DNA from: Clostridia bacterium
Lineage (GTDB): Bacteria; Bacillota; Clostridia; Oscillospirales; Acutalibacteraceae
Length of the DNA stretch: 34,520 nt
Reading direction: 5' to 3'
NCBI GenBank assembly: GCA_017403265.1
Contig: JAFQOJ010000042.1
Span: 1 to 34,520 of the forward strand
The notes below the pieces were generated by a model. That model ran no database searches, had not been told where the DNA came from, and saw only the letters and a list, made by a program, of their open reading frames with translations. Positions 12,054 to 30,363 of the stretch are shown one piece after another. Position numbers and translations under genes: made by a program. Numbering within the stretch: position 1 is the stretch's first letter; each line of letters begins with the position of its first letter.

Positions 12054-14279
12054 TTACAATTCGGGATGTTCAGACAGAGCCTTCAAGCGCTTCCAACGGC
12101 GGTCAATCTCTTGCTGAATCGTATTTCTAATTTCTGCGTAAGCTTCCCCACACAAATGCTTTGTTCTTCCCATCATTTTAAGCCAATCCTCTACAGGAAT
12201 CTTTGTGCCCTTTGCTTCGGGGTTAAAGGAAAGGGAGGTGTGTCCCTGTTCCACTTCATATAGTGGAAAATAACAGCTGTTTACTGCGGCGGAAATAACC
12301 TTTCGTTCGGTATTTGGCTTGTCACCCCAGTTAAGAGGACAAGCAGATAAACACTTGATATAGGCAGTTCCGTAATTTTTTGCGTAATACTGTGCCTTTG
12401 CCGCTTTCTTAATAAAATCGTTCGGCTCACTTTCGGCGGCAGTAGCTACATAAGGCATACCTGTAGCCGCCATAATGCGTGGCATATCCTTATTAAAAAA
12501 GCTTTTACCCCACTGTTTTTCTCCAAGGTGAGAGGTTGCGCTTTTAGCACCCATGGGTGTTGAATAGGATAGCTGATAGCCTGTATTCATATAACCGCCG
12601 TTGTCATATTCAAAAAGAATAACAGGGTCGTTTCTTAGAGCAGTGCCGAGAGCTGAGCCCATACCGATATCCATACCGCCGTCACCGCTGACCATAATAA
12701 ATGTGATATCGCCCTTTGGAAGCTCGCCGCGTTCCTGCATTTTGTGATACATTTTTGAAAGACCTGCTAAGGTTGCGGCACCGTTTTGGAATAAGTTGTG
12801 CACATAGGGAACTTTAAAAGAAGTTTTCGGATATCCTGTTGTAACCACCATGCCGCAGCCTGTTTGAAACAGTAAAACAACATTCCCTTCAATTCCCCGA
12901 AGAAGCAGATTAACATTGACCGGTATTCCGCAACCTGGACAAGCACCGTGGCCAGGTGCTAATCGTTTTGGTCTTGCCGTGGTATCACGGACTGTAGCAC
13001 CTTTCACGGTTACCTTTCCGTCTTCTTCGGTAAAAGAAATTAGAGCAGGAGATTGGTTATCAGTAATAGGCTCAAAATACGGTTTGGGGTTAAAATCAGC
13101 TTCTCCGGGATAAGTGCCAAAATAATCGAAGTTCGGGCTATTTTCATCATAGCAAAAATTAAATAGCTCTATTGCATCGCGCTCGAAAAAGTCGCGTCCG
13201 CCAAGACCGTATATACGGCTGATAACTTTAGCGGTCAATCCCTTTTGCTGTAAAGCTGCGCGTATCTCTAATGACATATTACCGCCGCCTCCACCGTAGC
13301 TATCCTGTCGGTCGGCGATAAGAATTGTTTGTGCGTTTTTGCATAAATCGGCAATTTGTTCAGACGGAAAAGGGCGAAGTGCACCAAGAGTAAATACACC
13401 TACTTTTTTGCCCTCGTCTCTCAGTTTGTCCACTGCCGCTTTAGCAGTAAGGTATGCCGAGCCCAAAACAAATAACAAAACGTCGGCATCATCGGTTTGA
13501 TAGGATTTTAGCGCTGATAGTTTTCTTCCCGATAACTGCTCATATTCAGCAAATATTTCAGGAATTACGGTGCGCGCCTTTTCCATTGCCAAATGAAGTT
13601 GATATTTGTTATTCATCAAATCAGGCTCATTCATATATGAGCCAATGGTAACAGGCTGTTTGGGATTTAACGAAGTATTATCGATACTTATAGGACCGAT
13701 AAAATTTTGCACGGCTTGGTCATCCGCGAATACATAGCAGTTACGCTTTTGATGGCTGGTAAAAAAGCCGTCAAACGCAACAATAACGGGCATTCTTAGT
13801 TTTTCCGCAATTTTAATAGCACAAATATTGCAGTCATATACCTCCTGCGGTGAGTCCGCAAATAGAATAATCCAACCTGTATTAAGTGTATACATAATAT
13901 CGCTGTGGTCACCTTTTATTGAAAGGGGACCCGAAACGGTACGGCAGGCTATATTAAGCACCATAGGAAGACGTGTGCCCGACTGTACAGGCAGTTGTTC
14001 AAGCGCGTATAAAAGTCCGTTTGCAGAGGTTGCGTTAAAAACTCTACCACCGCCTGTTGACGCACCATAACAGATACCTGCGGCACTGTGTTCGCCCTCT
14101 GCGGGTATTAGAGCAATAGAATGTTCTCCGTCTGCACCCATTTGGTCTAAAAATTCCGCAATTTGTGTGGACGGAGTGATGGGATAATAACCCATTACGT
14201 GATAATTTATCTGCTTTGCGGCATAGGCGGCAAGCTCGTTACCGCTTTCAAATAATAGCTTTTGTTTTGCTGTTTTCAT
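12054..14279 (-). CDS. 2-oxoacid:ferredoxin oxidoreductase, fused alpha and beta subunits
   Basis: The 741-residue product joins the alpha (pyrimidine-binding plus domain II) and beta (TPP-binding) subunits of an oxidoreductase that decarboxylates a 2-oxoacid to acyl-CoA and reduces ferredoxin. Alpha part (about 1-390): [28 protein letters not shown], and RDxFE-like end. Beta part (about 440-741): [11 protein letters not shown] (C447, C450), TGCG (C475), the TPP/Mg motif [13 protein letters not shown] to N560, and C-terminal CLSACPLNW; these Cys residues match the cluster ligands of PFOR beta. Fusion of alpha to beta, with gamma and delta fused in the neighbouring gene, is a compact two-gene version of the four-subunit enzyme. 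The substrate (pyruvate or a branched or aromatic 2-oxoacid) cannot be told. GGAGGTC ribosome site. Confidence 0.92.
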
Positions 14280-14280
14280 T

Positions 14281-15408
14281 TTACATAAGACCTCCGTCTA
14301 CACGTTTTTCATCTAAATAGGATTCACTCGTTATCCAAGGGTCAGCACCTTGGGGTTCAAAATCAAGATTCTCTGTTATCAGGTCTTTATTGCGTACAAA
14401 CCACTTTTTATCAGGGTGCTCGTTTTCTTTGCCTGTGACCAAAGCGCCTGTAGGACAGACATCAACACATCTTAGACATCCTTTACAGTGATGATAATCA
14501 AGACCTCTGTTCATCATAGTAGGTTTACCTTTGTATTCACCATTAGTAAACTGAAACACCATATCGGGACAGGTTGTGTCACAAAGACCGCAATGAATAC
14601 ATTTTTCGGGTAAGAATAGGGGAATAAACCCTTCTCTTGAAGGTGATAAATCGTTAGATACAGTACTGCCAAAATGCGTATTAGCACCGCCGAGCGGTGC
14701 ATTCTTATATCCCCATTTACTGCGAATTTCACGATATTCTACCTTTTGAAAATGTTGGTCGGGTAAAAAGGTTTGACTTGTTACATTATTGAAGCCTAAT
14801 TCTATACCTTTAAGGTTGCTTTCAAGCATTGTGGGATATTTTTTGCCCAGTGTGTCGGTAACTAACTCTTTTACAGCCTCAATGGGAATAAAACCCGATG
14901 CTTTAGCAACAGCACCTAACATAACCATATTAATTCGACTCTTGCTATCAAGTGCCAACTCCAAGGCATTTACACAACATACTGTTCCTGCATATAGATG
15001 AAGATCGTTGCGAATTTTCTCAGGATCTAAAGCGGTATTAACAACAAGTGTGCAATTTTCATCCACACCTGCGGTGACAGGAAGAGTTTTTGAAAGTGCA
15101 TGGTGGAACAACACCAAAAGATGAGGACGCTCAATAGGGCTATTATGCAAAATATCATACTGCGGTGCACTCCAACGCACATAAGATTTAACAGGTGAAC
15201 CCCGCTTTTCTGATCCATAGCTTGAAAATGCCGCAGCATTTAGTCCTAAATAGGCAGCACCGAGTTCGCCGAGAAGTTTTCCGCAAAGATTTGCTCCTAA
15301 ACCTCCGATGCTTTCGAGCCTAATTTCATAACAACCGTTTTCATTTATCGCGGGCAGACTAATCGGATATGTTTGCCGATTTTTAAAAATTTCAGATTTG
15401 TTTGCCAT
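14281..15408 (-). CDS. 2-oxoacid:ferredoxin oxidoreductase, fused gamma and delta (ferredoxin-like) subunits
   Basis: A 375-residue protein. The N-terminal gamma domain (about 25-205) has IGGLGANLCGKLLGELGA and SYGSEKRGSPV, typical of the CoA-binding gamma subunit. The C-terminal delta domain has two [4Fe-4S] motifs: C270/C273/C276/C280 (CIHCGLCDTTCP) and C308/C311/C314/C318 (CKGCLRCVDVCP). It supplies the electron-exit clusters for the alpha-beta protein encoded one base downstream. First gene of the operon, with an AAGGAG ribosome site before ATG. The divergent gap 15409-15521 must hold its promoter, but I see no clear hexamers. Confidence 0.93.
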   Translation of the reverse strand: MANKSEIFKNRQTYPISLPAINENGCYEIRLESIGGLGANLCGKLLGELGAAYLGLNAAAFSSYGSEKRGSPVKSYVRWSAPQYDILHNSPIERPHLLVLFHHALSKTLPVTAGVDENCTLVVNTALDPEKIRNDLHLYAGTVCCVNALELALDSKSRINMVMLGAVAKASGFIPIEAVKELVTDTLGKKYPTMLESNLKGIELGFNNVTSQTFLPDQHFQKVEYREIRSKWGYKNAPLGGANTHFGSTVSNDLSPSREGFIPLFLPEKCIHCGLCDTTCPDMVFQFTNGEYKGKPTMMNRGLDYHHCKGCLRCVDVCPTGALVTGKENEHPDKKWFVRNKDLITENLDFEPQGADPWITSESYLDEKRVDGGLM

Positions 15409-18892: not shown

Positions 18893-18921
18893 TTGACAAA
18901 GGAAATTTCAAGTGATATAAT
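18893..18921 (+). promoter_or_regulatory. Sigma-A promoter of the T-box operon
   Basis: TTGACA (18893-18898), 17 bases, TATAAT (18916-18921): a consensus housekeeping promoter, feeding the leader RNA below. Confidence 0.9.
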
Positions 18922-18927
18922 TACAAA

Positions 18928-19202
18928 AAATGTTGTTAAATGCGTTGACGGAATTATTACTTAGTTTCGGTGTGAAGAGAGCCGCCGTTTGGTGCAAGTG
19001 CGGTACACTTATATTAAGTTAAGTCTCATTCCTGAGCAGAGCGGCTGAAGTAAAAGTAAGCTGCTACGGTATGCCCCGTTACCATGGCAAAAGGCTTGTT
19101 GGAGCTTTACTGAGTGACCATATTTATATGGTAAACAGGGTGGTACCGCGAATAGTATATTCGTCCCTGAGAGTGCATATTGCATTCTCAGGGATTTTTT
19201 AT
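18928..19202 (+). promoter_or_regulatory. T-box leader, probable leucine specificity
   Basis: A tRNA-sensing transcription attenuator of about 270 nt. Seen directly: an AGAGAG element and GGTG loop of distal stem I (about 18976-19011), the post-specifier TGAG (19033-19036), the TGAAGTAAAAGTAAG segment, the T-box core AGGGTGGTACCGCG (19137-19150), and the terminator hairpin after it. The codon five bases before TGAG is CTC (19025-19027), the usual specifier place, so leucine. This fits the LeuA-like gene downstream. Uncharged tRNA binding at the T-box would favour the antiterminator and allow read-through. Confidence 0.92.
19163..19202 (+). terminator. T-box attenuator hairpin
   Basis: TCCCTGAGAGTGCA pairs with TGCATTCTCAGGGA, followed by a run of T. 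It sits just before the LeuA-like gene and is the regulated terminator of the T-box. Confidence 0.92.
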
Positions 19203-19222
19203 TTAAGAAAGTAGGTTTTATT

Positions 19223-20593
19223 ATGAAAGTTAAAATTGCAGACAGAACGCTGGTTTTCTCGAATGCGTCTTTAGGCTTTAAGGAAAAGGTTGAAATTGCG
19301 CGTCAACTTGAAAGATTAGGCGTAGATGCAATAGAACTTCCTAAAATAGAAAACGAAAAGGCTGATACCTTACTTATAAGAACCATGGCTTCTTTTGTAA
19401 AGAATGGTGTAATTTCGGTAGAGGTACAAAATAAGGCTGATGTAGATAGGGCGGTTGCAGCGCTTAATACCGCTAAAAACCCCCGTATTCGCGTAGAGCT
19501 TCCGCTTTCTTGCGTGGGTATGGAATATTCACTTCATATTAAAGCTAATAAAATGCTTGAAGTTATAAAAGAAACTGTAGCTTATGCAAAGCAGAAGATA
19601 AGCGATGTTGAATTTTGCGGTATTGATGCTACAAGAGCTGAATCGGAGTTTTTAAAAGAAGCAGTGGCTACCGCAAAAGAGTCGGGCGCTAAGCTTATAA
19701 CCTTCAGCGACTCTACTTCCGAGATGATGCCTGATGAATTTAGTAAGTTTGTTGCAGAATTTATGGCTGACGGAATTGATAGCGGTGTTATGTGTGAAGA
19801 CAAAAACGGTCTTGCTGCCGCTAATACAATTATCGCTGTACGCGGCGGTGTTACTACAGTTAAAACCTGTGTAAAAGGCAGTATTACAAATCTTTCTACC
19901 TTTGCGGGAATAGTTAAAAATTGCGGTAATAGTTATGGCTTTGAGTCGGCGGTTAAATTTACCGAGCTTAACCGCATTATAAACCAAATCACTTGGATTA
20001 CCAATAATGTTAAGGGCGAAAGCTCTTTGTCGAATATTGTCGAATTTGGCGAAACCGAATTAGAGTTAGATGCCAATGACGATAAGGAAACCGTGCTTAA
20101 AGCAGTTTTAGGTCTTGGGTACGATTTGTCCGAAGACGACGGTGCAAAGGTTTATGATGAATTTTTGCGTGTTGCCGCTAAAAAACGCATAACTGCCAAG
20201 GAGCTTGATGCAATTGTAGCAAGCGTAGCTTTACAGGTGGAGCCCACATATAAGGTTGTAAACTATGTCGTAAACAGCGGTAATATTATTACCTCTACCG
20301 CTCAGGTTACATTGGAAAAGGATGGAGAGTCCTTACAGGGCATTGGCGCAGGTGATGGTACTATTGACGCCGCATTCCATGCTTTAGAGCAGATTTTAGG
20401 CAGTAACTACGAATTGGACGATTTTCAAATTCACTCTGTAACAGAAGGTAAGGGCGCTATGGGTAGTGCTATAGTAAAGCTTCGTAAGGACGGAAGGCTT
20501 TATTCAGGAAATGGTATTTCTACCGACATTATTGCCGCAAGTATAAAAGCTTATATCAATGCAGTAAACAAAATTGTTTATGAGGAGGCTTAA
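19223..20593 (+). CDS. LeuA-like (2-isopropylmalate synthase family) protein with degenerate active site
   Basis: A 456-residue protein with an HMGL-like TIM barrel (about 1-260), a linker, and a C-terminal LeuA allosteric/dimerisation domain (about 315-456). The fold blocks align to LeuA (EKVEIARQLERLGVDAIELP; VEFCGIDATRAESEFL; NGLAAANTIIAV), but the catalytic motifs are changed. DTTLRDGEQ reads DRTLVFSNA, so the catalytic Arg is gone. The metal-binding HCHND reads MCEDK (M190, E192), so both His are lost. TINGIGERAGN reads TCVKGSITNLS. Only Asp7 of the metal site remains. It is therefore probably a pseudoenzyme or has another activity. The Leu T-box upstream and intact regulatory domain suggest it still responds to leucine (inference). 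First gene of the operon; the next starts two bases after its stop. Confidence 0.85.
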   Translation: MKVKIADRTLVFSNASLGFKEKVEIARQLERLGVDAIELPKIENEKADTLLIRTMASFVKNGVISVEVQNKADVDRAVAALNTAKNPRIRVELPLSCVGMEYSLHIKANKMLEVIKETVAYAKQKISDVEFCGIDATRAESEFLKEAVATAKESGAKLITFSDSTSEMMPDEFSKFVAEFMADGIDSGVMCEDKNGLAAANTIIAVRGGVTTVKTCVKGSITNLSTFAGIVKNCGNSYGFESAVKFTELNRIINQITWITNNVKGESSLSNIVEFGETELELDANDDKETVLKAVLGLGYDLSEDDGAKVYDEFLRVAAKKRITAKELDAIVASVALQVEPTYKVVNYVVNSGNIITSTAQVTLEKDGESLQGIGAGDGTIDAAFHALEQILGSNYELDDFQIHSVTEGKGAMGSAIVKLRKDGRLYSGNGISTDIIAASIKAYINAVNKIVYEEA

Positions 20594-20595
20594 TA

Positions 20596-23082
20596 ATGAA
20601 GTTATCTTTTTCAACAAAAGGTTGGCATAACAGTACCTTCGATGATTTTTGCGAAACAGCAAAAGATTTAAAGTTTCAGGGTATTGAGCTTCACAATATT
20701 CATAACAAGCTTTTTACCGATAAGGACGGCGCTTTTCACGATTATGCCGCTGCTAAAACCGTAAGAAAGCTTTATGAAAAGAAGTTATCTATCCCTTGTA
20801 TTGATACTATTTGCAATCTTGCAGACAGCAATAGCGAGAGTGAAATTATAAGCGAAATTAATAAATGTATTGAAATTGCTTCTAATTTGCATATAAATTA
20901 TGTAAGAGTAAAGGCTTACGGTGAAGAAAATTATGATTTTGTAAGCGAAGTTATAAAAAAAGTGCTCCCCGCAGCCGAGCAAAAAAATATTGTTATTTTG
21001 GTTGAAACTTCGGGTATTTTTGCAAATACCACTAAGCTCTGCGAATTGCTTGATAGCTTTGCACACGATAATTTGGCTGCGCTTTGGGATATGTATGCTA
21101 CCTATTTTGATGCAGATGAAACACCTGAAACCACAATTAAAAATTTAGGCGCTTATGTAAAGCATGTTCATATTAAGGATGCTGTTAAAACTGAAAACGG
21201 TAACGAATTTTGTTTAATCGGCGAAGGCGAAATGCCGATAGAAGATATGATGTTGGGTCTTTGCTCAATCAATTTTGACGGTTTTGTATCGCTTGAGTGG
21301 ACACCTGACTGGTGTAAAGAATTAGACGATATGGAGATTATTTTCTCGCACTTTGTAAACTATATGAAGCAGTGGGGAGACACCTCTAAAAGCGATAATT
21401 CGCTTTACTATAACCGCGCTCATACAGGTAGATATGTTTGGGAAAAGAACCGCCTTATCGACTGCACCTTCTCAGAGGTTCTTGACCGTATGGTAGAGGA
21501 ATTCCCTGACCAATATGCTTTTAAATATACTACACTTGACTATACAAGAACCTATAGCGAGTTCAGAGATGATGTAGATACCTTTGCTAGAACCTTGATT
21601 GCTTTAGGTGTTAAGGCAGGTACTCACGTTGCAGTATGGGCATCTAATGTTCCGCAGTGGTATATTGCATTTTGGGCAACCGTAAAGTTAGGTGCAGTGC
21701 TTGTTACTGTAAATACTGCTTATAAAATTCACGAAATCGAGTATTTGCTTAGACAATCGGATACTCATACTTTAATTATGACCGAGGGTGCAAAGGATTG
21801 CCGTTACGGTGATATTATTGCTGAGCTTTGCCCCGAGCTTGAAACCAGGAAGGCAGGCACTCCGCTTCACAGCAAGCGCCTTCCTTTCCTTAGAAATGCA
21901 ATTACAGTAGGCTTTAAGCAAAAGGGTTGTCTTACTTGGAATGAAGCTATTGAGTTGTCAAGTCAAGTACCTGTAACCGAGGTTTACCGTATGGCAGCGG
22001 CTGTAGATAAAGATGATGTATGTAATATGCAGTATACATCAGGTACTACGGGATTTCCTAAGGGTGTAATGCTTACACACTATAATGTTGTTAACAACGG
22101 TAAATACATTGGCGACCAAATGGAGCTTTCCACTGCTGACAGAATGATGATTCAAGTGCCTATGTTCCATTGCTTCGGTATGGTACTTTCTATGACATCC
22201 TCTATGACGCATGGCGCTACGATGTGCCCAATGCCGTATTTCTCGGCTAAATCTTCGCTTTCTTGTGTAAATAATGAGCATATTACCGCCTTTAACGGTG
22301 TGCCTACAATGTTTATTGCTATGATGAATCACCCCGATTTCGAGAAAACCGATTTTTCATATATGCGTGTAGGTATTATGGCAGGCGCAAACTGTCCTGC
22401 TGACCTTATGAAAAAGGCCACCGAAGTTATGAATATGAAAGAAATTGTTTCGGTTTACGGTCAAACCGAGGCTTCCCCCGGTTGTACTATGAGCAGTTAT
22501 TTTGATTCCTTAGAAGTTCGTACCGAAACGGTAGGTAGCGCATTTGCTAACGTTGAATGTAAAATTGTTGACCCTGAAACAGGCTTAGATTGCCCTGTGG
22601 GTGTAAACGGCGAGTTTGTTGCACGTGGTTACAATATAATGAAGGGCTATTACAAAATGCCTAAAGCTACCGCCGAAGCTATTGATGCTGACGGTTGGCT
22701 TCATACAGGCGACTTGGCTTGCAAGGATGAAAACGGCAACTACCGTATCACAGGCCGACTTAAAGATATGATTATTCGCGGGGGAGAAAATATTTATCCT
22801 AAGGAAATTGAAGAATTTATCTACACCTGTGATAAGGTAAGCGATGTTCAGGTAATAGGCGTTCCCGATAAAACCTACGGCGAAGAAATTATGGCTTGCA
22901 TTATTCTTAAAAAGGGTGAGAGTATGACCGAAGATGAAATGCGCCAATATATTGCCGCAAATATGGCTAGACATAAAGTGCCCCGCTATATTGAGTTTGT
23001 ATCCTCATTCCCAATGAATGCGGCAGGTAAAATTCTTAAATACAAGATGCGTGAAGACGCGGCGAAGAAGTTGGGATTATGA
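20596..23082 (+). CDS. Fusion protein: sugar-phosphate isomerase/epimerase-like TIM barrel plus acyl-CoA synthetase
   Basis: One uninterrupted 828-residue frame. Residues 1-265 form an AP-endonuclease-2/xylose-isomerase-like barrel with likely metal ligands E137 (VETSG), D165 (LWDMY), H190/H192 (KHVHIKD) and E234 (LEWTP). Residues about 290-828 form an AMP-dependent acyl-CoA synthetase: P-loop YTSGTTGFPKG (480-490), YGQTEASPG, GWLHTGDLA, GRLKDMIIRGGENIYPKEIEE and the C-terminal catalytic Lys in GKILK. Both halves look active. The ligase half resembles medium-chain fatty-acyl-CoA synthetases; substrates are unknown. GAGGAGG ribosome site inside the preceding gene; the last four bases overlap the next start (ATGA). 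The two parts could act on one pathway or be linked for co-expression. Confidence 0.9.
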   Translation: MKLSFSTKGWHNSTFDDFCETAKDLKFQGIELHNIHNKLFTDKDGAFHDYAAAKTVRKLYEKKLSIPCIDTICNLADSNSESEIISEINKCIEIASNLHINYVRVKAYGEENYDFVSEVIKKVLPAAEQKNIVILVETSGIFANTTKLCELLDSFAHDNLAALWDMYATYFDADETPETTIKNLGAYVKHVHIKDAVKTENGNEFCLIGEGEMPIEDMMLGLCSINFDGFVSLEWTPDWCKELDDMEIIFSHFVNYMKQWGDTSKSDNSLYYNRAHTGRYVWEKNRLIDCTFSEVLDRMVEEFPDQYAFKYTTLDYTRTYSEFRDDVDTFARTLIALGVKAGTHVAVWASNVPQWYIAFWATVKLGAVLVTVNTAYKIHEIEYLLRQSDTHTLIMTEGAKDCRYGDIIAELCPELETRKAGTPLHSKRLPFLRNAITVGFKQKGCLTWNEAIELSSQVPVTEVYRMAAAVDKDDVCNMQYTSGTTGFPKGVMLTHYNVVNNGKYIGDQMELSTADRMMIQVPMFHCFGMVLSMTSSMTHGATMCPMPYFSAKSSLSCVNNEHITAFNGVPTMFIAMMNHPDFEKTDFSYMRVGIMAGANCPADLMKKATEVMNMKEIVSVYGQTEASPGCTMSSYFDSLEVRTETVGSAFANVECKIVDPETGLDCPVGVNGEFVARGYNIMKGYYKMPKATAEAIDADGWLHTGDLACKDENGNYRITGRLKDMIIRGGENIYPKEIEEFIYTCDKVSDVQVIGVPDKTYGEEIMACIILKKGESMTEDEMRQYIAANMARHKVPRYIEFVSSFPMNAAGKILKYKMREDAAKKLGL

Positions 23083-23885
23083 TAAATAATATTTTTACAA
23101 TAGATTCGCATTGCCATATTTACCCCGAAAAAATTGCCCAAAAGGCGGTAGGCGGTACCGATAACTTTTACAGTACAAAATCGGTAGGCAAGGGTACGGT
23201 AGAAGACCTTATAGAAAGTGGTAAAAATGCAGGTATAGACCATTTTATTGTTCAGTCTGTAGCAACCACTCCAAAGCAGGTTGAAAGCATAAACCGTTTT
23301 ATTGCAACCGAAGTGGCAAATTCGGGAGGTCTTATGACGGGACTCGGCACATTGCATCCCGATAGTGCCGATATTAATGGTGATGTCAAGAATATCTTAA
23401 AATTGGGGCTTAAGGGTGTAAAATTGCACCCAGATATTCAAGCTTTTAAATTGGATGATTACCGCTGTCTTAAGATTTACGAACTATGCGAAGAAAATAA
23501 TCTGCCAATACTTATTCATACAGGGGATAACCGCTACGATTACTCTAACCCTAACCGAATGTTGCCTATTTTGGAGATTTATAAAGGCTTAAAGGTCATA
23601 GGAGCTCATTTGGGTGGTTGGTCAATCTGGCAGGATGCCGTAAAGGAATATAAGGATATGCCAAACTTTTATGTAGACTGTTCTTCTTCTTTTTACTACC
23701 TAAAACCTGAAACCGCAAAAAATATTATAAGCGAGTACGGAGCCGATAAGGTACTGTTTGGTACAGACTATCCTATGTGGTCTCAAAAAAAAGAAATAGA
23801 ATATTTTTTGAGTCTCGCTCTTGACGAAAACGAAATTAGTAGTATACTTAATATGAATGCAAAAAAAATATTTGGTTTGGAGTAA
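23079..23885 (+). CDS. Amidohydrolase-family metal-dependent hydrolase (amidohydrolase_2)
   Basis: A 268-residue TIM-barrel hydrolase. Metal ligands visible: HCH in IDSHCHIYP (residues about 11-13), His in LIHTGD, His in GAHLGG and Asp in FGTDYP, the amidohydrolase_2 set also found in ACMSD-like decarboxylases. VKLHPDIQAF is a further family block. The substrate is unknown; such enzymes hydrolyse or decarboxylate amide or carboxylate compounds. The gene overlaps the fusion gene by four bases, and metY starts six bases after its stop, so it is tightly embedded in the operon. Confidence 0.85.
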   Translation: MINNIFTIDSHCHIYPEKIAQKAVGGTDNFYSTKSVGKGTVEDLIESGKNAGIDHFIVQSVATTPKQVESINRFIATEVANSGGLMTGLGTLHPDSADINGDVKNILKLGLKGVKLHPDIQAFKLDDYRCLKIYELCEENNLPILIHTGDNRYDYSNPNRMLPILEIYKGLKVIGAHLGGWSIWQDAVKEYKDMPNFYVDCSSSFYYLKPETAKNIISEYGADKVLFGTDYPMWSQKKEIEYFLSLALDENEISSILNMNAKKIFGLE

Positions 23886-23891
23886 TTAATT

Positions 23892-25175
23892 ATGAAAAAT
23901 ACAAAACTTGGTACAAAATGTGTACAGGGCGGTTATCAGCCTAAAAACGGTGAGCCCCGCCAAATTCCGATTTACCAAAGCACAACATATAAATATGATA
24001 CAAGTGAGGATATGGGTAAGCTTTTTGACTTAGAGGCCTCGGGTTATTTTTATGCCCGCCTTCAAAACCCTACCTGCGACCTTGTAGCTGCTAAAATTTG
24101 TGAAATGGAGGGCGGTACTGCCGCAATGCTTACCTCTTCAGGTCAGGCAGCATCCTTTTTCTCAATCTTTAATATTGCAAGCGTGGGCGACCATATTGTA
24201 GCTTCTTCCGCTATTTATGGCGGTACTTATAACCTTTTCGCTGTAACTATGAAGCGCATGGGTATAGATTTTACCTTTATCACTCCTGACTGTACAGACG
24301 AAGAGTTTGAAGCCGCATTTAAGCCTAACACCAAGGCGGTTTTCGGCGAAACTATTGCTAACCCTGCTTTGAATGTTTTGGATATTGAACGCTTTAGCGC
24401 TATGGCACATAAGCACGGTGTGCCGCTTATTGTAGATAATACCTTTGCAACACCTGTACATTGCCGTCCTATTGAATGGGGTGCAGATATTGTAATCCAT
24501 TCTACTACTAAGTATATGGACGGTCACGGCAGTGCTGTAGGCGGTTGTATTGTAGATTCGGGAAAGTTTGATTGGACCAAGTACCCCGAAAAGTACCCCG
24601 GTTTATGCACCCCTGATGACAGCTACCACGGTGTTACTTATACCGAGCGTTTTGGATTACAAGGTGCTTATATTACAAAGTCTACCGCACAGTTAATGCG
24701 TGACTTTGGCTGCTGTCAGCAAGCACAAACCGCTTATGTTTTAAACTTAGGTCTTGAAAGTTTACACTTGCGCATTAAAAAGCATTATGAAAACGGCTTG
24801 GCAGTTGCTAAGTTTTTACAAGGTGATGACCGCATTTCTTGGGTAAGATTCCCACATTTAGAGGGCGACAAGAACTACGAATTGGCACAAAAATATATGC
24901 CAAACGGCGGTTGCGGTGTTGTAAGCTTTGGCGTCAAGGGTGGAAGACCCGCGGCAGAAGCCTTTATGAAACAGCTTAAAATGGCTAGTATTGCAACCCA
25001 CGTTGCAGATGCACGCACCTGTTGCTTGCATCCTGCTAACGCTACCCACCGTCAAATGAATGACGACGAGCTTTTAGCTGCAGGCATCACACCCGATTTA
25101 ATCCGTTTTTCTTGCGGTATTGAGGAAAGTGAAGATATTATCGCAGATATTAAGCAGGCGCTTGATAAAATTTAA
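23892..25175 (+). CDS. metY: O-acetylhomoserine sulfhydrylase / aminocarboxypropyltransferase
   Basis: A PLP enzyme of the Cys/Met metabolism family that replaces the acetyl group of O-acetylhomoserine with sulfide (or methanethiol), giving homocysteine (or methionine). Seen: CVQGGYQPKNGEPRQIPIYQSTTY, the SGQAA block, VDNTFATP, and the PLP lysine K207 in IHSTTKYMDGHG. The 427-residue length and long insert around 220-265 fit MetY rather than MetB/MetC. Its partner metA lies 18 bases downstream, and MetA's Glu111 predicts an acetyl donor, so the two form a matched sulfhydrylation pathway. Confidence 0.93.
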   Translation: MKNTKLGTKCVQGGYQPKNGEPRQIPIYQSTTYKYDTSEDMGKLFDLEASGYFYARLQNPTCDLVAAKICEMEGGTAAMLTSSGQAASFFSIFNIASVGDHIVASSAIYGGTYNLFAVTMKRMGIDFTFITPDCTDEEFEAAFKPNTKAVFGETIANPALNVLDIERFSAMAHKHGVPLIVDNTFATPVHCRPIEWGADIVIHSTTKYMDGHGSAVGGCIVDSGKFDWTKYPEKYPGLCTPDDSYHGVTYTERFGLQGAYITKSTAQLMRDFGCCQQAQTAYVLNLGLESLHLRIKKHYENGLAVAKFLQGDDRISWVRFPHLEGDKNYELAQKYMPNGGCGVVSFGVKGGRPAAEAFMKQLKMASIATHVADARTCCLHPANATHRQMNDDELLAAGITPDLIRFSCGIEESEDIIADIKQALDKI

Positions 25176-25193
25176 TTAAAAGGATATAGATAT

Positions 25194-26111
25194 ATGCCTA
25201 TTAGAATACCAAATGATTTACCGGCAGTAAAAACTTTAAATGACGAAAATATCTTTGTTATGACCGAAACCAGAGCTATAACACAGGATATTCGCCCTTT
25301 AAAAATATTGCTTTTGAATCTTATGCCTAAAAAGATTGAAACCGAAACTCAGTTGTCACGTCTTTTGGGCAACTCACCTTTACAGGTAGAGCTGGAACTT
25401 ATACACACAAAAAGCCATTTATCTAAAAATACTCCGCAAGAGCATATGCTGGCTTTTTATAAAACCTTTGATGATGTTAAGCACCGCACCTTTGACGGTA
25501 TGATTATTACGGGCGCACCTGTTGAACTAATGCCTTTTTGCGAGGTTGAATATTGGGAAGAGCTATGCGAAATTATGGAGTGGACCAAAACCCACGTTCA
25601 CAGTACTTTTCATATTTGTTGGGGTGCTCAGGCAGGCCTTTATTACCATTTTGGTATAGATAAAAAGGTATTACCCGCTAAAATGTTCGGCGTTTTTCCA
25701 CATACAGTTGATTATAAAAAATCTATTTTGTTCCGTGGCTTTGATGATGTGTTTATGGTGCCACATTCAAGGCATACAACTATAGATGATGAAAAGGTCA
25801 AAAAATGCAAAAAGCTTAAGATTTTAGCTTCTTCCGAAGAGGCAGGAATATATGCTTTAGCCACTAAAAACGGCAAACAAATTTTTATAACCGGCCATTC
25901 TGAATACGATGCCGAAACCTTAGCTAACGAGTATTTTAGAGATTTAAGTCAAGGAAAGCCAATTGATATACCAAAAAATTATTTCCCAGAAAATAATCCG
26001 GAAAATAAACCTGTGGTTAGTTGGCGCTCACACGCTAATTTACTTTATTCAAACTGGCTTAACTATTTTGTATATCAAACAACACCATACGATATTGAAA
26101 AGATTAAATAA
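25194..26111 (+). CDS. metA: Homoserine O-acetyltransferase, MetA family
   Basis: A 305-residue enzyme acylating L-homoserine, the committed step of methionine synthesis. Catalytic residues fall exactly where expected: Cys142 (HICWGAQAG), His235 and Glu237 (TGHSEYD). Residue 111 is Glu (TGAPVE), as in B. cereus MetA which uses acetyl-CoA, rather than Gly as in succinyl-CoA-using enterobacterial MetA. Ribosome site AAAAGGA before the ATG. Last gene of the T-box operon, followed directly by a terminator. Confidence 0.95.
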
Positions 26112-26184: not shown

Positions 26185-26321
26185 GAAATCTGACATGAAG
26201 ATTTCCGTAAATATTTTTACGGTTTTCTGGGTGAAAGATGCACAGATAAAAATATGCTTTATGGTATATTTGACCGCATCGTATCCCGATGCGGTTTTTT
26301 GTTATTAAAAGGAGAATTTGT
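26185..26321 (+). promoter_or_regulatory. Structured leader with attenuator-like terminator, candidate riboswitch of unassigned class
   Basis: From the predicted start the leader can form consecutive hairpins: GAAATCT/AGATTTC (26185-26205), CCGTAA/TTACGG (26205-26222) and AATATGC/GTATATT (26251-26270). Then comes an intrinsic terminator, CCGCATCG/CGATGCGG plus six T (26274-26300), ending nine bases before the AAAGGAG ribosome site. The segment GATGC at 26237-26241 can pair with GCATC of the terminator arm and act as antiterminator. I recognise no known riboswitch class. A simple leader without ligand control is also possible. Confidence 0.6.
26274..26300 (+). terminator. Attenuator hairpin before the TM1266-type gene
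   Basis: Eight-base-pair perfect stem (CCGCATCG paired with CGATGCGG, loop TATCC) followed by TTTTTT. It lies between the promoter and the first gene of the same transcript, so it must be regulated or partial. Confidence 0.9.
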
Positions 26322-26582
26322 ATGGAAACACGAGTTGCAGTAATGGGCATTATTGTAGAAGAATTAGGCTCGGTAGAAGCGCTTAATGCATTATTGCATG
26401 AATATGGGTGCTATATTATTGGCCGAATGGGGCTTCCCTATAGAGAAAAAAATATAAATATTGTTTCAATCGCTATAGATGCTCCGCAGGACACAATATC
26501 CGCCCTTTCGGGAAAAATTGGAAAGATAACGGGCGTTAGTGTAAAAACCGCCTATTCGAATGTGATTACCAATGAAAAATAA
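26322..26582 (+). CDS. TM1266-type iron-only hydrogenase system regulator
   Basis: An 86-residue ACT-like protein of the kind found almost always with [FeFe]-hydrogenase maturation genes and named putative hydrogenase system regulator. Blocks seen: RVAVMGIIVEELGSVEALNALLHEYG, IIGRMGLPYREKNINIVSIAIDAP and the ending SVKTAYSNV. The function is not established; by fold and context it may bind a small ligand and modulate the system. I chose ATG at 26322 (AAAAGGAG site); an upstream in-frame ATG at 26289 lies within the terminator hairpin. Overlaps hydE by 11 bases. Confidence 0.9.
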   Translation: METRVAVMGIIVEELGSVEALNALLHEYGCYIIGRMGLPYREKNINIVSIAIDAPQDTISALSGKIGKITGVSVKTAYSNVITNEK

Positions 26583-27624
26583 TCTTTACTTACTGATTGA
26601 TAAGCTTGCAAGTGAGCATAGTCTTTCGTGTCAAGAATACGAGCTATTACTTGACGGCCGCACACCAGAACTTTCAGAATACGCGGCAAAAAAAGCGGTA
26701 GAACTTCGTCAAGCCGTTTACGGAAATGATGTATATATACGCGGTCTTATAGAAATTAGTAATATATGTAAAAATGATTGTCTTTATTGCGGAATCCGCC
26801 ATAGTAATAAAAGCTGTGTGAGATACCGCTTGAGTGAACAAGAAATTTTGTCTTGTTGTGAAGAAGGCTACACACTCGGCTTTCGCACCTTTGTTTTGCA
26901 GGGCGGTGAAGACCCCTTCTTTACTGATGAATTTCTTTGCGGTTTAATTAGCAATATTAAAAATAAATATCCCGACTGTGCGGTCACATTATCGCTTGGG
27001 GAACGAAGTTTCCAAAGCTATAAAGCGCTTTTTGAAGCGGGTGCCGACCGTTATCTACTCCGTCACGAAACGGCAGACCCCGATTTATACCGCAAGCTTC
27101 ACCCTGAAAATATGTCGCTTGAAAATAGGTTAAAGTGCCTTAAAAACCTAAAAGAAATCGGTTATCAAACAGGGTGTGGCTTTATGGTGAGGGCACCTTA
27201 CCAAACCAACCGTTCTTTAGCAATGGACCTAAAGTTTGTAGAAGAGTTTCGCCCTGATATGTGCGGAATAGGTCCCTTTATTCCACACGCGGCAACACCA
27301 TTTTGTGAATTCCCGTCGGGAACGCTTGAAGAAACTCTGTTTTTACTCTCACTTTTAAGACTTATCGACCCAACACTTTTACTGCCTGCAACCACTGCCT
27401 TAGGTACTATTGATGCAAATGGTCGTGAAAAGGGTATTTTAGCGGGGGCTAATGTGGTCATGCCTAATCTTTCACCTGTAGATGTTCGTAAAAAATACGA
27501 GCTATACAATAACAAAATCTGTACAGGTGAAGAATCAGCTCAGGCGAAAGAAGCGCTTAGTCGCCGTATGGAAGCCATAGGCTATAAGCTTGTTACCGAC
27601 CGCGGTGACCGAAAAGAATGTTAA
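26572..27624 (+). CDS. hydE: [FeFe]-hydrogenase H-cluster radical SAM maturase HydE
   Basis: A radical SAM enzyme needed for assembling the H-cluster 2Fe subcluster, acting on HydG's Fe(CO)2(CN)-cysteine product. The radical SAM triplet C66, C70, C73 (CKNDCLYC) is present, with typical flanks YIRGLIEISNIC and FVLQGGEDP. 350 residues is the normal length. No separate ribosome site is visible, and it overlaps the preceding gene by 11 bases, suggesting translational coupling. Confidence 0.96.
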   Translation: MKNNLYLLIDKLASEHSLSCQEYELLLDGRTPELSEYAAKKAVELRQAVYGNDVYIRGLIEISNICKNDCLYCGIRHSNKSCVRYRLSEQEILSCCEEGYTLGFRTFVLQGGEDPFFTDEFLCGLISNIKNKYPDCAVTLSLGERSFQSYKALFEAGADRYLLRHETADPDLYRKLHPENMSLENRLKCLKNLKEIGYQTGCGFMVRAPYQTNRSLAMDLKFVEEFRPDMCGIGPFIPHAATPFCEFPSGTLEETLFLLSLLRLIDPTLLLPATTALGTIDANGREKGILAGANVVMPNLSPVDVRKKYELYNNKICTGEESAQAKEALSRRMEAIGYKLVTDRGDRKEC

Positions 27625-27661
27625 TTTTAATGTTTTAGATATAAGAAAGAAGGAAAAATAA

Positions 27662-29110
27662 ATGGCAAAATATAATCCAAAATCATTAAAAGCGGAAGAA
27701 TTTATAAGTCACGAAGAAATTTTAGAAACCATCCGCTATGCAGAAGAAAATAAACATAATATTGCTTTAATTGATAGCTTGCTCGAAAAAGCAAGACCTA
27801 AAATAACCGCAAACGGTGTGCATTGTGAGGGTCTTACCCACCGCGAAGCTTCGGTTTTGCTTGCTTGTGATATTCCCGAAAAGGTGGAAGAAATGTATCG
27901 CCTCGCCGAAGAAATCAAATTAGCATTTTACGGTAACCGTATTGTTATGTTTGCACCGTTATACCTTTCAAACTACTGTGTAAACGGTTGTGTTTACTGT
28001 CCTTATCACTATAAAAATAAGCATATTGCCCGTAAAAAACTAAGTCAGGAAGAGATTCGCAACGAGGTAATTGCTTTACAGGATATGGGACATAAGCGCT
28101 TGGCTATTGAATCGGGTGAAGACCCTGTTAACAGCCCGATAGAATACATATTGGAAAGCATTAAAACTATTTACAGTATTCAGCACAAAAACGGTGCAAT
28201 CCGCCGTGTCAATGTAAATATTGCCGCTACTACTGTAGAAAATTACCGCAAGCTAAAGGAAGCAGGTATCGGCACTTACATACTTTTCCAAGAAACCTAT
28301 CATAAGGAAAGCTATTTAGAGCTTCACCCAACAGGACCTAAGCACGATTATGATTATCATACCGAAGCAATGGACCGCGCTATGCAGGGCGGAATCGATG
28401 ATGTTGGTTTGGGTGTTTTATTCGGGCTTGAAAGATATCAGTATGAATTTGCAGGCCTTCTTATGCATGCAGAACATTTAGAAGCAGTACACGGTGTAGG
28501 TCCGCACACCATTAGCGTTCCGCGTATAAAGCGTGCTGACGATATTGACCCCGATGTTTTTGATAATGGAATCCCCGATGAAATTTTCGAGAAAATTATT
28601 GCTTGTATCCGTATTGCCGTTCCATATACCGGTATGATTATTTCTACAAGAGAAAGCGAAGCCGTACGCGGTAGAGCATTAAAGCTTGGCATTTCGCAAA
28701 TAAGCGGTGCTTCGCGTACTTCGGTTGGCGGATATACTGAAGAGGAACGCAACCATGATTCTGAGCAGTTTGATGTTTCAGACCAAAGAACATTGGACGA
28801 AGTTGTAAATTGGCTTATGAAGCTCGGGTATATTCCGTCCTTCTGTACCGCTTGCTACCGCGAGGGTAGAACGGGTGACCGCTTTATGAGTCTTTGCAAA
28901 AACGGTCAGATTTTAAACTGCTGTCATCCAAATGCGCTTATGACTCTTAGCGAATACCTTGTAGATTATGCAAGTGAAGAAACCAAAAAGGTAGGTTTCG
29001 AGCTTATTGAACGCGAGCTTCAAAAGATTCCCGCAGAAAAGGTGTGCAAAATTGCTACCGAAAATATTGAGCAAATTAAAAACTCTAACCGCCGTGACTT
29101 CCGTTTCTAA
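27662..29110 (+). CDS. hydG: [FeFe]-hydrogenase H-cluster radical SAM maturase HydG
   Basis: A radical SAM tyrosine lyase, ThiH-related, that splits tyrosine to yield CO and cyanide ligands and builds an Fe(CO)2(CN)-Cys unit. N-terminal triplet C106, C110, C113 (CVNGCVYC); the HydG-specific C-terminal motif C-x2-C-x22-C is intact (CTAC ... NCC). 482 residues, full length. AAGGA ribosome site; 37 bases after hydE and 47 before hydF. Confidence 0.97.
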   Translation: MAKYNPKSLKAEEFISHEEILETIRYAEENKHNIALIDSLLEKARPKITANGVHCEGLTHREASVLLACDIPEKVEEMYRLAEEIKLAFYGNRIVMFAPLYLSNYCVNGCVYCPYHYKNKHIARKKLSQEEIRNEVIALQDMGHKRLAIESGEDPVNSPIEYILESIKTIYSIQHKNGAIRRVNVNIAATTVENYRKLKEAGIGTYILFQETYHKESYLELHPTGPKHDYDYHTEAMDRAMQGGIDDVGLGVLFGLERYQYEFAGLLMHAEHLEAVHGVGPHTISVPRIKRADDIDPDVFDNGIPDEIFEKIIACIRIAVPYTGMIISTRESEAVRGRALKLGISQISGASRTSVGGYTEEERNHDSEQFDVSDQRTLDEVVNWLMKLGYIPSFCTACYREGRTGDRFMSLCKNGQILNCCHPNALMTLSEYLVDYASEETKKVGFELIERELQKIPAEKVCKIATENIEQIKNSNRRDFRF

Positions 29111-29157
29111 TAATACTTGAAAAATTTTATGCAAAATCTATTTAAGGAGGAATTATT

Positions 29158-30363
29158 ATGAGTCTTAACACTGCTGCTTCTGCCGAAAGGGTGCATATAG
29201 GCTTTTTTGGTATGCGTAATGCGGGTAAATCAAGCTTGGTTAATGCCGTAACAGGACAGCAGTTATCTGTTGTATCAGATGTAAAGGGCACTACAACTGA
29301 CCCTGTTAAAAAGGCAATGGAATTACTTCCTATGGGTCCCGTTGTTATTATAGATACTCCCGGAATTGATGATGAAGGGGAGCTTGGTGAACAACGCGTT
29401 AAAAAAGCTTTAGAAATTCTTCGCCAAACGGATATTGCAATATTGGTTGTTGATGCGAAAAAGGGATTGAGTAAAGCGGATAATGAGTTAATTAACCTTT
29501 TTAAAAAGCGAAATCTACCTTATGTTACGGTTTATAATAAGGCGGATTTGCTGTCAACTGTACCAAATGATACTCAAAACGAAGCTTATGTTAGCGCGAA
29601 TACGCTTTTAGGTATAAATGCCCTAAAGGAAAAAATTGCCGCTATGGCTAAAGCTTCAAAAAGTGACCGAAAAATTGTTTCGGATTTGGTAGCAAAGGGC
29701 GATACTGTAATACTTGTTACCCCGATTGATGCCGCCGCCCCTAAGGGAAGACTTATTTTACCGCAGCAACAAACACTTCGTGAGCTTTTGGATATTGGCG
29801 TGGTTTCATTGGTGGTACGCGAAACCGAGCTTAAAAATGCGCTTGAATCGCTCAAAACCCCACCGAAACTTGTTATTACCGATTCGCAGGTATTCGGTTT
29901 AGTTGATAAAGAAGTTCCCAAAACAGTACAGCTTACATCATTTTCTATTCTTTTTGCTCGTTATAAGGGTGACCTTGCTACAGTTGTAGGCGGTGCGGCA
30001 AAATTAGATCGCCTGCAAGACGGTGATAAAATCTTAATATCTGAGGGTTGCACACACCACCGCCAATGCAACGATATAGGAACAGTAAAGCTGCCTGGTT
30101 GGATTGATAACTACACAGGTAAAAAGCTTTTCTATTCGTTTACTTCGGGCGGTCAGTTCCCCGAAGATTTATCGCAGTATGCACTGGTTGTTCACTGTGG
30201 CGGCTGTATGCTTAACGAAGCGGAAATGAAATCTCGTTTAGAGCTTTGTAACGAACAAGGTATACCGGTTATAAATTACGGTATTGCCATAGCGCAAATG
30301 CACGGTATTTTAAAGCGTTCGTTAGAGCCGTTCCCCGATTTGTTAAATATTTTAAAAAAATAA
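29158..30363 (+). CDS. hydF: [FeFe]-hydrogenase H-cluster maturation GTPase HydF
   Basis: The scaffold GTPase on which the 2Fe subcluster is assembled before delivery to the hydrogenase. G1 GMRNAGKSS (18-26), G3 DTPG (66-69), G4 NKAD (127-130); the C-terminal cluster-binding domain has CTH (C298, H300) and HCGGC (C347, C350), the CxH/HCxxC motif of HydF. 401 residues, full length. AAGGAGG ribosome site. Last gene of the operon, with a strong terminator 13 bases later. No hydrogenase structural gene is in the window. Confidence 0.97.
   Translation: MSLNTAASAERVHIGFFGMRNAGKSSLVNAVTGQQLSVVSDVKGTTTDPVKKAMELLPMGPVVIIDTPGIDDEGELGEQRVKKALEILRQTDIAILVVDAKKGLSKADNELINLFKKRNLPYVTVYNKADLLSTVPNDTQNEAYVSANTLLGINALKEKIAAMAKASKSDRKIVSDLVAKGDTVILVTPIDAAAPKGRLILPQQQTLRELLDIGVVSLVVRETELKNALESLKTPPKLVITDSQVFGLVDKEVPKTVQLTSFSILFARYKGDLATVVGGAAKLDRLQDGDKILISEGCTHHRQCNDIGTVKLPGWIDNYTGKKLFYSFTSGGQFPEDLSQYALVVHCGGCMLNEAEMKSRLELCNEQGIPVINYGIAIAQMHGILKRSLEPFPDLLNILKK

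Follow-up and report, generated by a model that had tools for sequence, protein, structure and literature searches.

A leucine T-box-controlled, LeuA-derived pseudoenzyme beside a TIM-barrel acyl-CoA ligase in uncultured Clostridia, a predicted leucine sensor for amino-acid synthesis from branched volatile fatty acids

Branched volatile fatty acids serve as feed additives. The carboxylation of isovalerate on the way to leucine in rumen microbes has been described and counts as established biochemistry (PMC7356843), a review of methanogens assigns 2-methylbutyrate and isovalerate to the same carboxylation route (PMC10658910), and the opposite path, by which branched acids would yield amino acids, has been termed 'not proven yet' (PMC7709123). 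The methylbutyryl-CoA synthetase MbcS of S. aureus is ATP-dependent, acts on branched short acids with isovalerate as a poor substrate, and serves fatty-acid synthesis (PMC10026030). T-boxes are known upstream of leuA, for example in Geobacter (PMC2494555), and HisZ of the short-form ATP phosphoribosyltransferase is a non-catalytic subunit with an end-product pocket that exerts feedback on its partner (PMC9734150); for all six sources these statements follow the portions that were accessible. T-boxes on leuA, isovalerate carboxylation and non-catalytic regulatory subunits are each already known singly. Literature searches, which covered few subscription papers, returned no description of the cluster of a LeuA homologue and an acyl-CoA ligase reported here or of a ligase set under three T-boxes, and no paper coupling isopropylmalate synthase with a pseudoenzyme.

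The window, that is, the whole stretch of 34,520 nt analysed here, is from an assembly of the family Acutalibacteraceae (GCA_017403265.1, contig JAFQOJ010000042.1). The LeuA homologue, hereafter pLeuA, and its surroundings contain the following features.

18893..18921, + strand: sigma-70-type promoter read off the sequence, TTGACA (18893-18898), 17 nt, TATAAT (18916-18921)
18936..19171, + strand: T-box leader (Rfam match to RF00230) with Leu specifier CUC at 19025-19027; relatives have CUC, CUG or CUU
19164..19200, + strand: hairpin plus T run, an intrinsic terminator that forms when the T-box is off (sequence and fold)
19223..20593, + strand: pLeuA, LeuA-family protein predicted to be catalytically dead, 456 aa; degenerate HMGL-like barrel at residues 1-~262, LeuA_dimer domain at 323-451
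20596..23082, + strand: 828-aa fusion of an AP_endonuc_2 TIM barrel and an AMP-binding acyl-CoA ligase, with isovalerate as its predicted substrate (Pfam and synteny)
23079..23885, + strand: Amidohydro_2 family protein, 268 aa, a frequent third gene (Pfam; 39/80 best named loci)
23892..25175, + strand: MetY, O-acetylhomoserine sulfhydrylase-type protein (TIGR01326 above cut-off), 6 nt past the Amidohydro_2 gene
25194..26111, + strand: MetA, homoserine O-acetyltransferase (NF047918 above cut-off)
12054..14279, - strand: 2-oxoacid:ferredoxin oxidoreductase, fused alpha-beta, PorA/PorB-like; a possible candidate carboxylating enzyme nearby
14281..15408, - strand: gamma subunit and 4Fe-4S domains of the PorA/PorB-like oxidoreductase (Pfam POR and Fer4)

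A preliminary description of this DNA had proposed a leucine T-box leader with specifier CTC, and this was borne out: RF00230 matched at 122.4 bits (gathering score 93; E 7e-27), and its alignment placed CUC, followed by A, in the specifier position, so that both the family score and the Leu specifier assign the leader to this T-box class. The folding z-score of positions 18930-19205 was -3.5, and 0/200 shuffles were equally stable. A Met-type T-box, considered because of the downstream metY and metA, was ruled out by the CUC specifier. The spacing of the genes, with 2 bases between pLeuA and the TIM-barrel ligase fusion (TIM-ligase), suggests that pLeuA through MetA form one transcript. The genes metY and metA (23892-26111) come after the operon, set off by 6 and 18 nt, and their relatives were found in the flanks of 4 and 5 respectively of the 80 best named loci; because they lie behind a Leu T-box, a shortage of leucine may increase methionine synthesis as well in the lineage of the window. 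No NCBIfam model matched the Amidohydro_2 protein at E 0.001, and the region 26289-30363, judged from its translations, presumably encodes a TM1266-type regulator followed by the hydrogenase maturation proteins HydE, HydG and HydF.

The domain architecture of LeuA was found to be retained in pLeuA, as had been described from the sequence. Matches to HMGL-like (E 1e-30) and LeuA_dimer (E 2e-33) were both above the Pfam cut-offs, the two domains occurred together in 15/15 members of set A1, and a PDB search with the regulatory domain gave weak matches alone, all to IPMS regulatory domains (E 0.05-0.11). The scores against the LeuA equivalog models, 228 bits for TIGR00973 leuA_bact (cut-off 598.7) and 252.9 for NF002086 (cut-off 532), were far below the level required for a true LeuA.

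Catalytic residues were compared by aligning the window protein with 14 type-1 LeuA proteins of its GTDB family, and in a joint alignment of 81 pLeuA and the 14 LeuA, with columns assigned to what we take to be the LeuA catalytic roles. The losses named in the preliminary description, namely the catalytic Arg, both metal-binding His and the GIGERAGN loop, were all recovered, and motifs overlooked through misalignment were ruled out by the joint alignment. The Arg column of DTTLRDGxQ holds V11 in the window protein and is Arg in 17/81 intact family members, the HxH columns hold M190 and E192 within MCEDK (190-194), and the GER of the loop is a gap in 81/81. Two further losses were found: the metal Asp column is non-Asp in the window protein, and a linker segment with a GIH motif, holding residues invariant in LeuA, is gapped in 80 or 81 of the 81 pLeuA. 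D7 was ruled out as the metal Asp, whose column directly follows the Arg column. Each of the three metal ligands (Asp, His, His) is present in 0/81 pLeuA compared with 14/14 LeuA. The former catalytic columns are occupied by many different residues, none of which has become conserved, so that no replacement metal site is apparent. Elsewhere in the barrel, F19, P94, K107 and K214 are (near-)invariant in pLeuA and differ from LeuA, and D7, K22, D48, D135 and R138 are (near-)invariant and common with LeuA. Judged by the lost catalytic and metal-binding residues, the window gene is a LeuA-derived pseudoenzyme, dead as a LeuA.

To determine the distribution of pLeuA, 300 genomes from the GTDB family of the window were searched with the pLeuA protein, and the outcome was bimodal. 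A close relative was found in 82/300 (hand count; one split across contig ends), and true type-1 LeuA was matched in 15/300, mostly as two pieces, with one genome having both. No internal stops were found in the pLeuA matches listed for the 82 genomes. The family set of 81 comprised 80 fetched relatives and the window, and the named set comprised the best 80 of at least 519 confirmed relatives in a scan of named genomes; nine of these 80 loci repeat a family locus, so the sets partly overlap. By source, 46 of the best 80 named loci were from genomes with herbivore or rumen in the title, 17 carried RUG/SIG/RGIG codes alone and 17 had neither.

A tree was built from one in three of the 81 pLeuA (27, the window protein among them), 14 type-1 LeuA, eight type-2 LeuA and seven CimA-like proteins. 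As the preliminary description had considered possible, pLeuA formed a single clade (SH-aLRT 100), with type-1 LeuA as the nearest group, and the metal-site loss is common to all 81 aligned members. The tree program gave a warning about the meeting of the long branches of LeuA2 and CimA, from which the placement of pLeuA is unaffected. Averaged over pairs, the identities of barrel and regulatory domain were 0.40 and 0.66 for pLeuA but 0.66 and 0.50 for type-1 LeuA, and the barrel was the more conserved half in 0/3240 pLeuA pairs compared with 90/91 LeuA pairs. Such inverted conservation would be expected if the sensor had been kept and the active site given up. With the universal loss of the metal site, the regulatory domain as the conserved half and the Leu specifiers given below (66/67 and 64/64), the sequences support the proposal of a leucine-responsive pseudoenzyme. 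The resemblance of pLeuA to type-1 LeuA (TIGR00973) thus consists of the homologous barrel and regulatory domain, the position in the tree, LeuA_dimer and the Leu T-box. The differences are the absence of metal ligands, GIGER loop and linker, the Arg lost in most members, the inverted conservation, and the location beside an acyl-CoA ligase, in genomes from which leuA and leuD are mostly missing.

The relationship of pLeuA to the isopropylmalate route was determined for the same 300 genomes. Type-1 LeuA was above cut-off in 14/300 and type-2 LeuA (NF002991) in 158/300. Among pLeuA genomes 7/82 had a LeuA above cut-off (six type-2, one type-1), leaving 75/82 with none above either, whereas 165/218 of the others had one (Fisher p 2e-27, relatedness of the genomes ignored); neither LeuA nor pLeuA was found in 53 of the 300. 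LeuA-only and pLeuA-only species occur side by side in 13 genera (hand count), and this near-exclusion is therefore not one old split. At least two Aconitase_C matches, a rough proxy for LeuD, were counted by hand in 7/82 pLeuA genomes compared with 148/218 others. The search for an intact leuA elsewhere in the window's own genome was negative within an assembly that is 87% complete: three HMGL-like (PF00682) proteins are encoded including pLeuA, and the other two are unlike LeuA, the first presumably resembling Re-citrate synthase and the second a carboxylase subunit. A single Aconitase_C match was found there, to a frame of 643 aa whose length suggests aconitase. Across these genomes pLeuA mostly replaces, rather than accompanies, the isopropylmalate route.

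The TIM-ligase was found directly after pLeuA in 158/161 loci (relatives and window), the three misses being contig ends; it followed immediately and in the same orientation in 81/81 family loci and 77/80 best named loci, the median distance to the last sense codon of pLeuA being 6 nt. The TIM domain was matched in 132/300 family genomes (hand count), divided into 82 with pLeuA, 35 with a fusion-length frame without pLeuA and 15 with a short TIM-only frame. The 35 fusions without pLeuA indicate that the ligase in general does not need pLeuA. Among 19 such fusions fetched, a readable Leu T-box was present in 7/19; for the other 12, Rfam gave a T-box at gathering score in 0/9, and three were covered by pattern scan only. 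The residues that we take to be the metal ligands of the TIM domain, E137, D165, H168, H192 and E234, were kept in 18/18 pLeuA-free ligases, and with pLeuA in 69, 36, 17, 62 and 42 of 77 respectively, indicating that the pLeuA and TIM barrels erode together. Distances of the pLeuA barrel and the TIM domain, controlled for ligase and regulatory-domain distances, were correlated (partial r 0.49, 0/999 permutations, 76 genomes). The correlation is a hint that the two barrels touch, and it may in part reflect two fast-evolving domains. The solved chains matched by the ligase were varied acyl- and aryl-CoA ligases, luciferases and others, and were uninformative on substrate.

Neighbouring genes within 8 kb of pLeuA were counted in the best 80 named loci, many of which end early at contig ends. 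VorB was found in 31, VorA in 31, VorC in 32, the branched-chain aminotransferase BCAT in 36, a MinD-like ATPase in 31, an HTH-cupin-AMP ligase in 29 (some short fragments) and the amidohydrolase in 39. A frequent order was cupin-ligases, MinD-like, VorB, VorA, VorC, BCAT, T-box, pLeuA, TIM-ligase and amidohydrolase. One VorB scanned scored 530.9 against NF005507 (cut-off 399), and one BCAT 400.9 against TIGR01123 (ilvE_II; cut-off 250). In the wider sample VorB was present in 76/82 pLeuA genomes and 90/218 without pLeuA (hand count), and a cupin-ligase match in 77/80 pLeuA genomes (in G194 the ligase part alone), with at least two matches, not all full length, in 66 of the 80. Neither VorB nor cupin-ligase was found in three pLeuA genomes (G166, G221 and G244), and VorB alone was not found in two (G037 and G062). 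The MinD/CbiA-like ATPase, ~222 aa and conserved, lies between the cupin-ligases and VorB (L135, L151, L172 and others; 31 of the best 80 loci), and a MinD-like gene that heads the VOR cluster has by pattern its own Leu (CTC) T-box at L157:3618-4283 and L161:3540-4277.

T-boxes were found by pattern in 68/81 family loci, three of the 13/81 without having truncated upstream DNA; Rfam placed one in 19/20 loci of close relatives and, in eight named loci, upstream of pLeuA in six and of a cupin-ligase in two. Read at a single fixed offset, the family specifiers were Leu in 66/67 (61 CTC, five CTG, one TCC; 14/81 unread), the TCC at L044 being a misread with a shifted anchor in a sequence that has GTCTC, and the specifiers of the best 80 named loci were Leu in 64/64 (63 CTC, one CTT; 16/80 unread). 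The 21 specifiers read upstream of cupin-ligases were 16 Val (15 GTA, one GTC) and five Ile (ATC). The HTH-cupin-AMP ligases have three domains and ~760 aa and often stand in tandem with one Val and one Ile T-box (L131-L210 loci; G000:C56:35241-39526 = L218:9230-13527). By analogy with pLeuA, their cupin may be an effector-sensing domain.

The own genome of the window encodes three ligases in all: the TIM-ligase and a tandem pair of cupin-ligases, one preceded by an Ile (ATC) and one by a Val (GTA) T-box, with the second of the pair cut at a contig end. In this 87% complete assembly there was no VorB match at E 1e-60, and neither BCAT nor a class-IV aminotransferase was found (the control was found in 13/14 genomes). 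Since the second cupin-ligase stops exactly at the contig end, the missing VorB and BCAT may be an assembly gap; VorB was found in 3/3 same-genus genomes drawn, and many relatives encode ligase, VOR and BCAT together. The PorA-like oxidoreductase of the window (12054-15408, - strand) is 29% identical to VorB.

The conserved ligase partner and the pathway cluster, both absent from the preliminary description, point to the likely function of pLeuA. What the computations show is that the active site is lost and the regulatory domain kept, that pLeuA is a single clade with inverted conservation, that the ligase gene adjoins it, that Leu, Val and Ile T-boxes occur as a set, and that pLeuA and LeuA nearly exclude each other. 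On top of these observations, the following mechanism can be proposed. Uncharged tRNA-Leu would open the T-box and switch on the pLeuA/TIM-ligase operon. The TIM-barrel/AMP ligase would convert isovalerate to isovaleryl-CoA, a VOR-type 2-oxoacid:ferredoxin oxidoreductase acting in the carboxylating direction would convert this to 4-methyl-2-oxopentanoate (ketoleucine), and an aminotransferase would form leucine. Substrates of the cupin-ligases, which stand under Val and Ile T-boxes, would be isobutyrate and 2-methylbutyrate. Most simply, each of the three branched acids would have its own ligase, switched on when the corresponding amino acid runs short, and all three ligases would share one oxidoreductase and one aminotransferase. 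Having no condensation left, pLeuA would retain a regulatory domain of the leucine-binding type, LeuA_dimer presumably binding leucine as expected from the family, and its barrel would bind the TIM domain of the ligase and so place the ligase under leucine feedback, as dead HisZ does for HisG. Like HisZ, pLeuA is most likely the leucine-sensing subunit of the Leu-arm ligase.

A pathway from branched volatile fatty acids to amino acids is well supported by the cluster, and we regard it as probable that pLeuA is the LeuA-derived pseudoenzyme and sensor of the leucine arm in a pathway making branched-chain amino acids from these acids. The preliminary description had also raised a new activity, in which the remodelled barrel would be a metal-independent enzyme for another pathway step. 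Some barrel residues are indeed (near-)invariant and no internal stop was found among the matches listed, but the former active-site columns vary freely and hold no conserved substitute, which disfavours a new activity; with the barrel as the fast-evolving half and no missing step in the proposed pathway calling for another enzyme, such a role appears unlikely. No greater probability is given to an operon that supplies branched acyl-CoA as primers for membrane lipids, with the T-box merely coupling it to leucine supply. MbcS provides a precedent as a branched-acid acyl-CoA synthetase for fatty-acid synthesis (PMC10026030, accessible portion), against which VorBAC and BCAT share the cluster at many loci, leuA and leuD are mostly absent from pLeuA genomes, and three ligase sets stand under Leu, Val and Ile T-boxes.

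The loss of the catalytic residues, together with the absence of leuA and leuD in most pLeuA genomes, could also be expected of a functionless, decaying relic of leucine biosynthesis; this is very improbable given the matches of 82 genomes free of internal stops, a regulatory domain with 66% mean identity, strict synteny with the TIM-ligase and T-boxes at 68/81 loci. Lowest of all in probability is the decoy or hetero-oligomer partner of a true LeuA envisaged in the preliminary description. The grouping with type-1 LeuA, the kept dimerisation domain and the seven pLeuA genomes that do have LeuA would accommodate it, but the lack of LeuA above either cut-off in the other 75 indicates that pLeuA is mostly not a LeuA decoy or partner, LeuA-only and pLeuA-only species coexist in 13 genera, and the two other PF00682 proteins of the own genome are unlike LeuA.

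The sensor reading of pLeuA can be set against the described systems. Like HisZ, pLeuA is a dead enzyme homologue encoded beside its proposed target. HisZ derives from HisRS, and pLeuA has another fold and belongs to another pathway, its complex and ligand binding being putative. The clustered neighbours agree with the rumen route of VOR and branched-chain aminotransferase, VorB (NF005507) and ilvE_II being above curated cut-offs; TIM- or HTH-cupin-acyl-CoA ligases under Leu, Val or Ile T-boxes, and pLeuA itself, had no counterpart in the literature searched. The predicted Leu-arm ligase resembles MbcS as an ATP-dependent acyl-CoA synthetase for branched short acids, and the accessible portion of the MbcS paper mentions neither a fusion nor a LeuA partner (PMC10026030).

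A more complete version is tentative, and we hold it with slightly more doubt than confidence. Here pLeuA and the TIM domain would form a leucine-gated isovaleryl-CoA synthetase which, with the Val and Ile cupin-ligases, VorBAC and BCAT, would constitute the genetic basis of the pathway from branched volatile fatty acids to amino acids in uncultured rumen Clostridia, the allosteric half of LeuA having been re-aimed at a new committed step after loss of the isopropylmalate route. Each gene of the cluster offers a separate test of amino-acid synthesis from branched acids, the end product served by each ligase being indicated by its T-box specifier, and pLeuA would plainly exemplify a pathway replacement in which an enzyme lost its catalytic half and had its allosteric half put to a new use.
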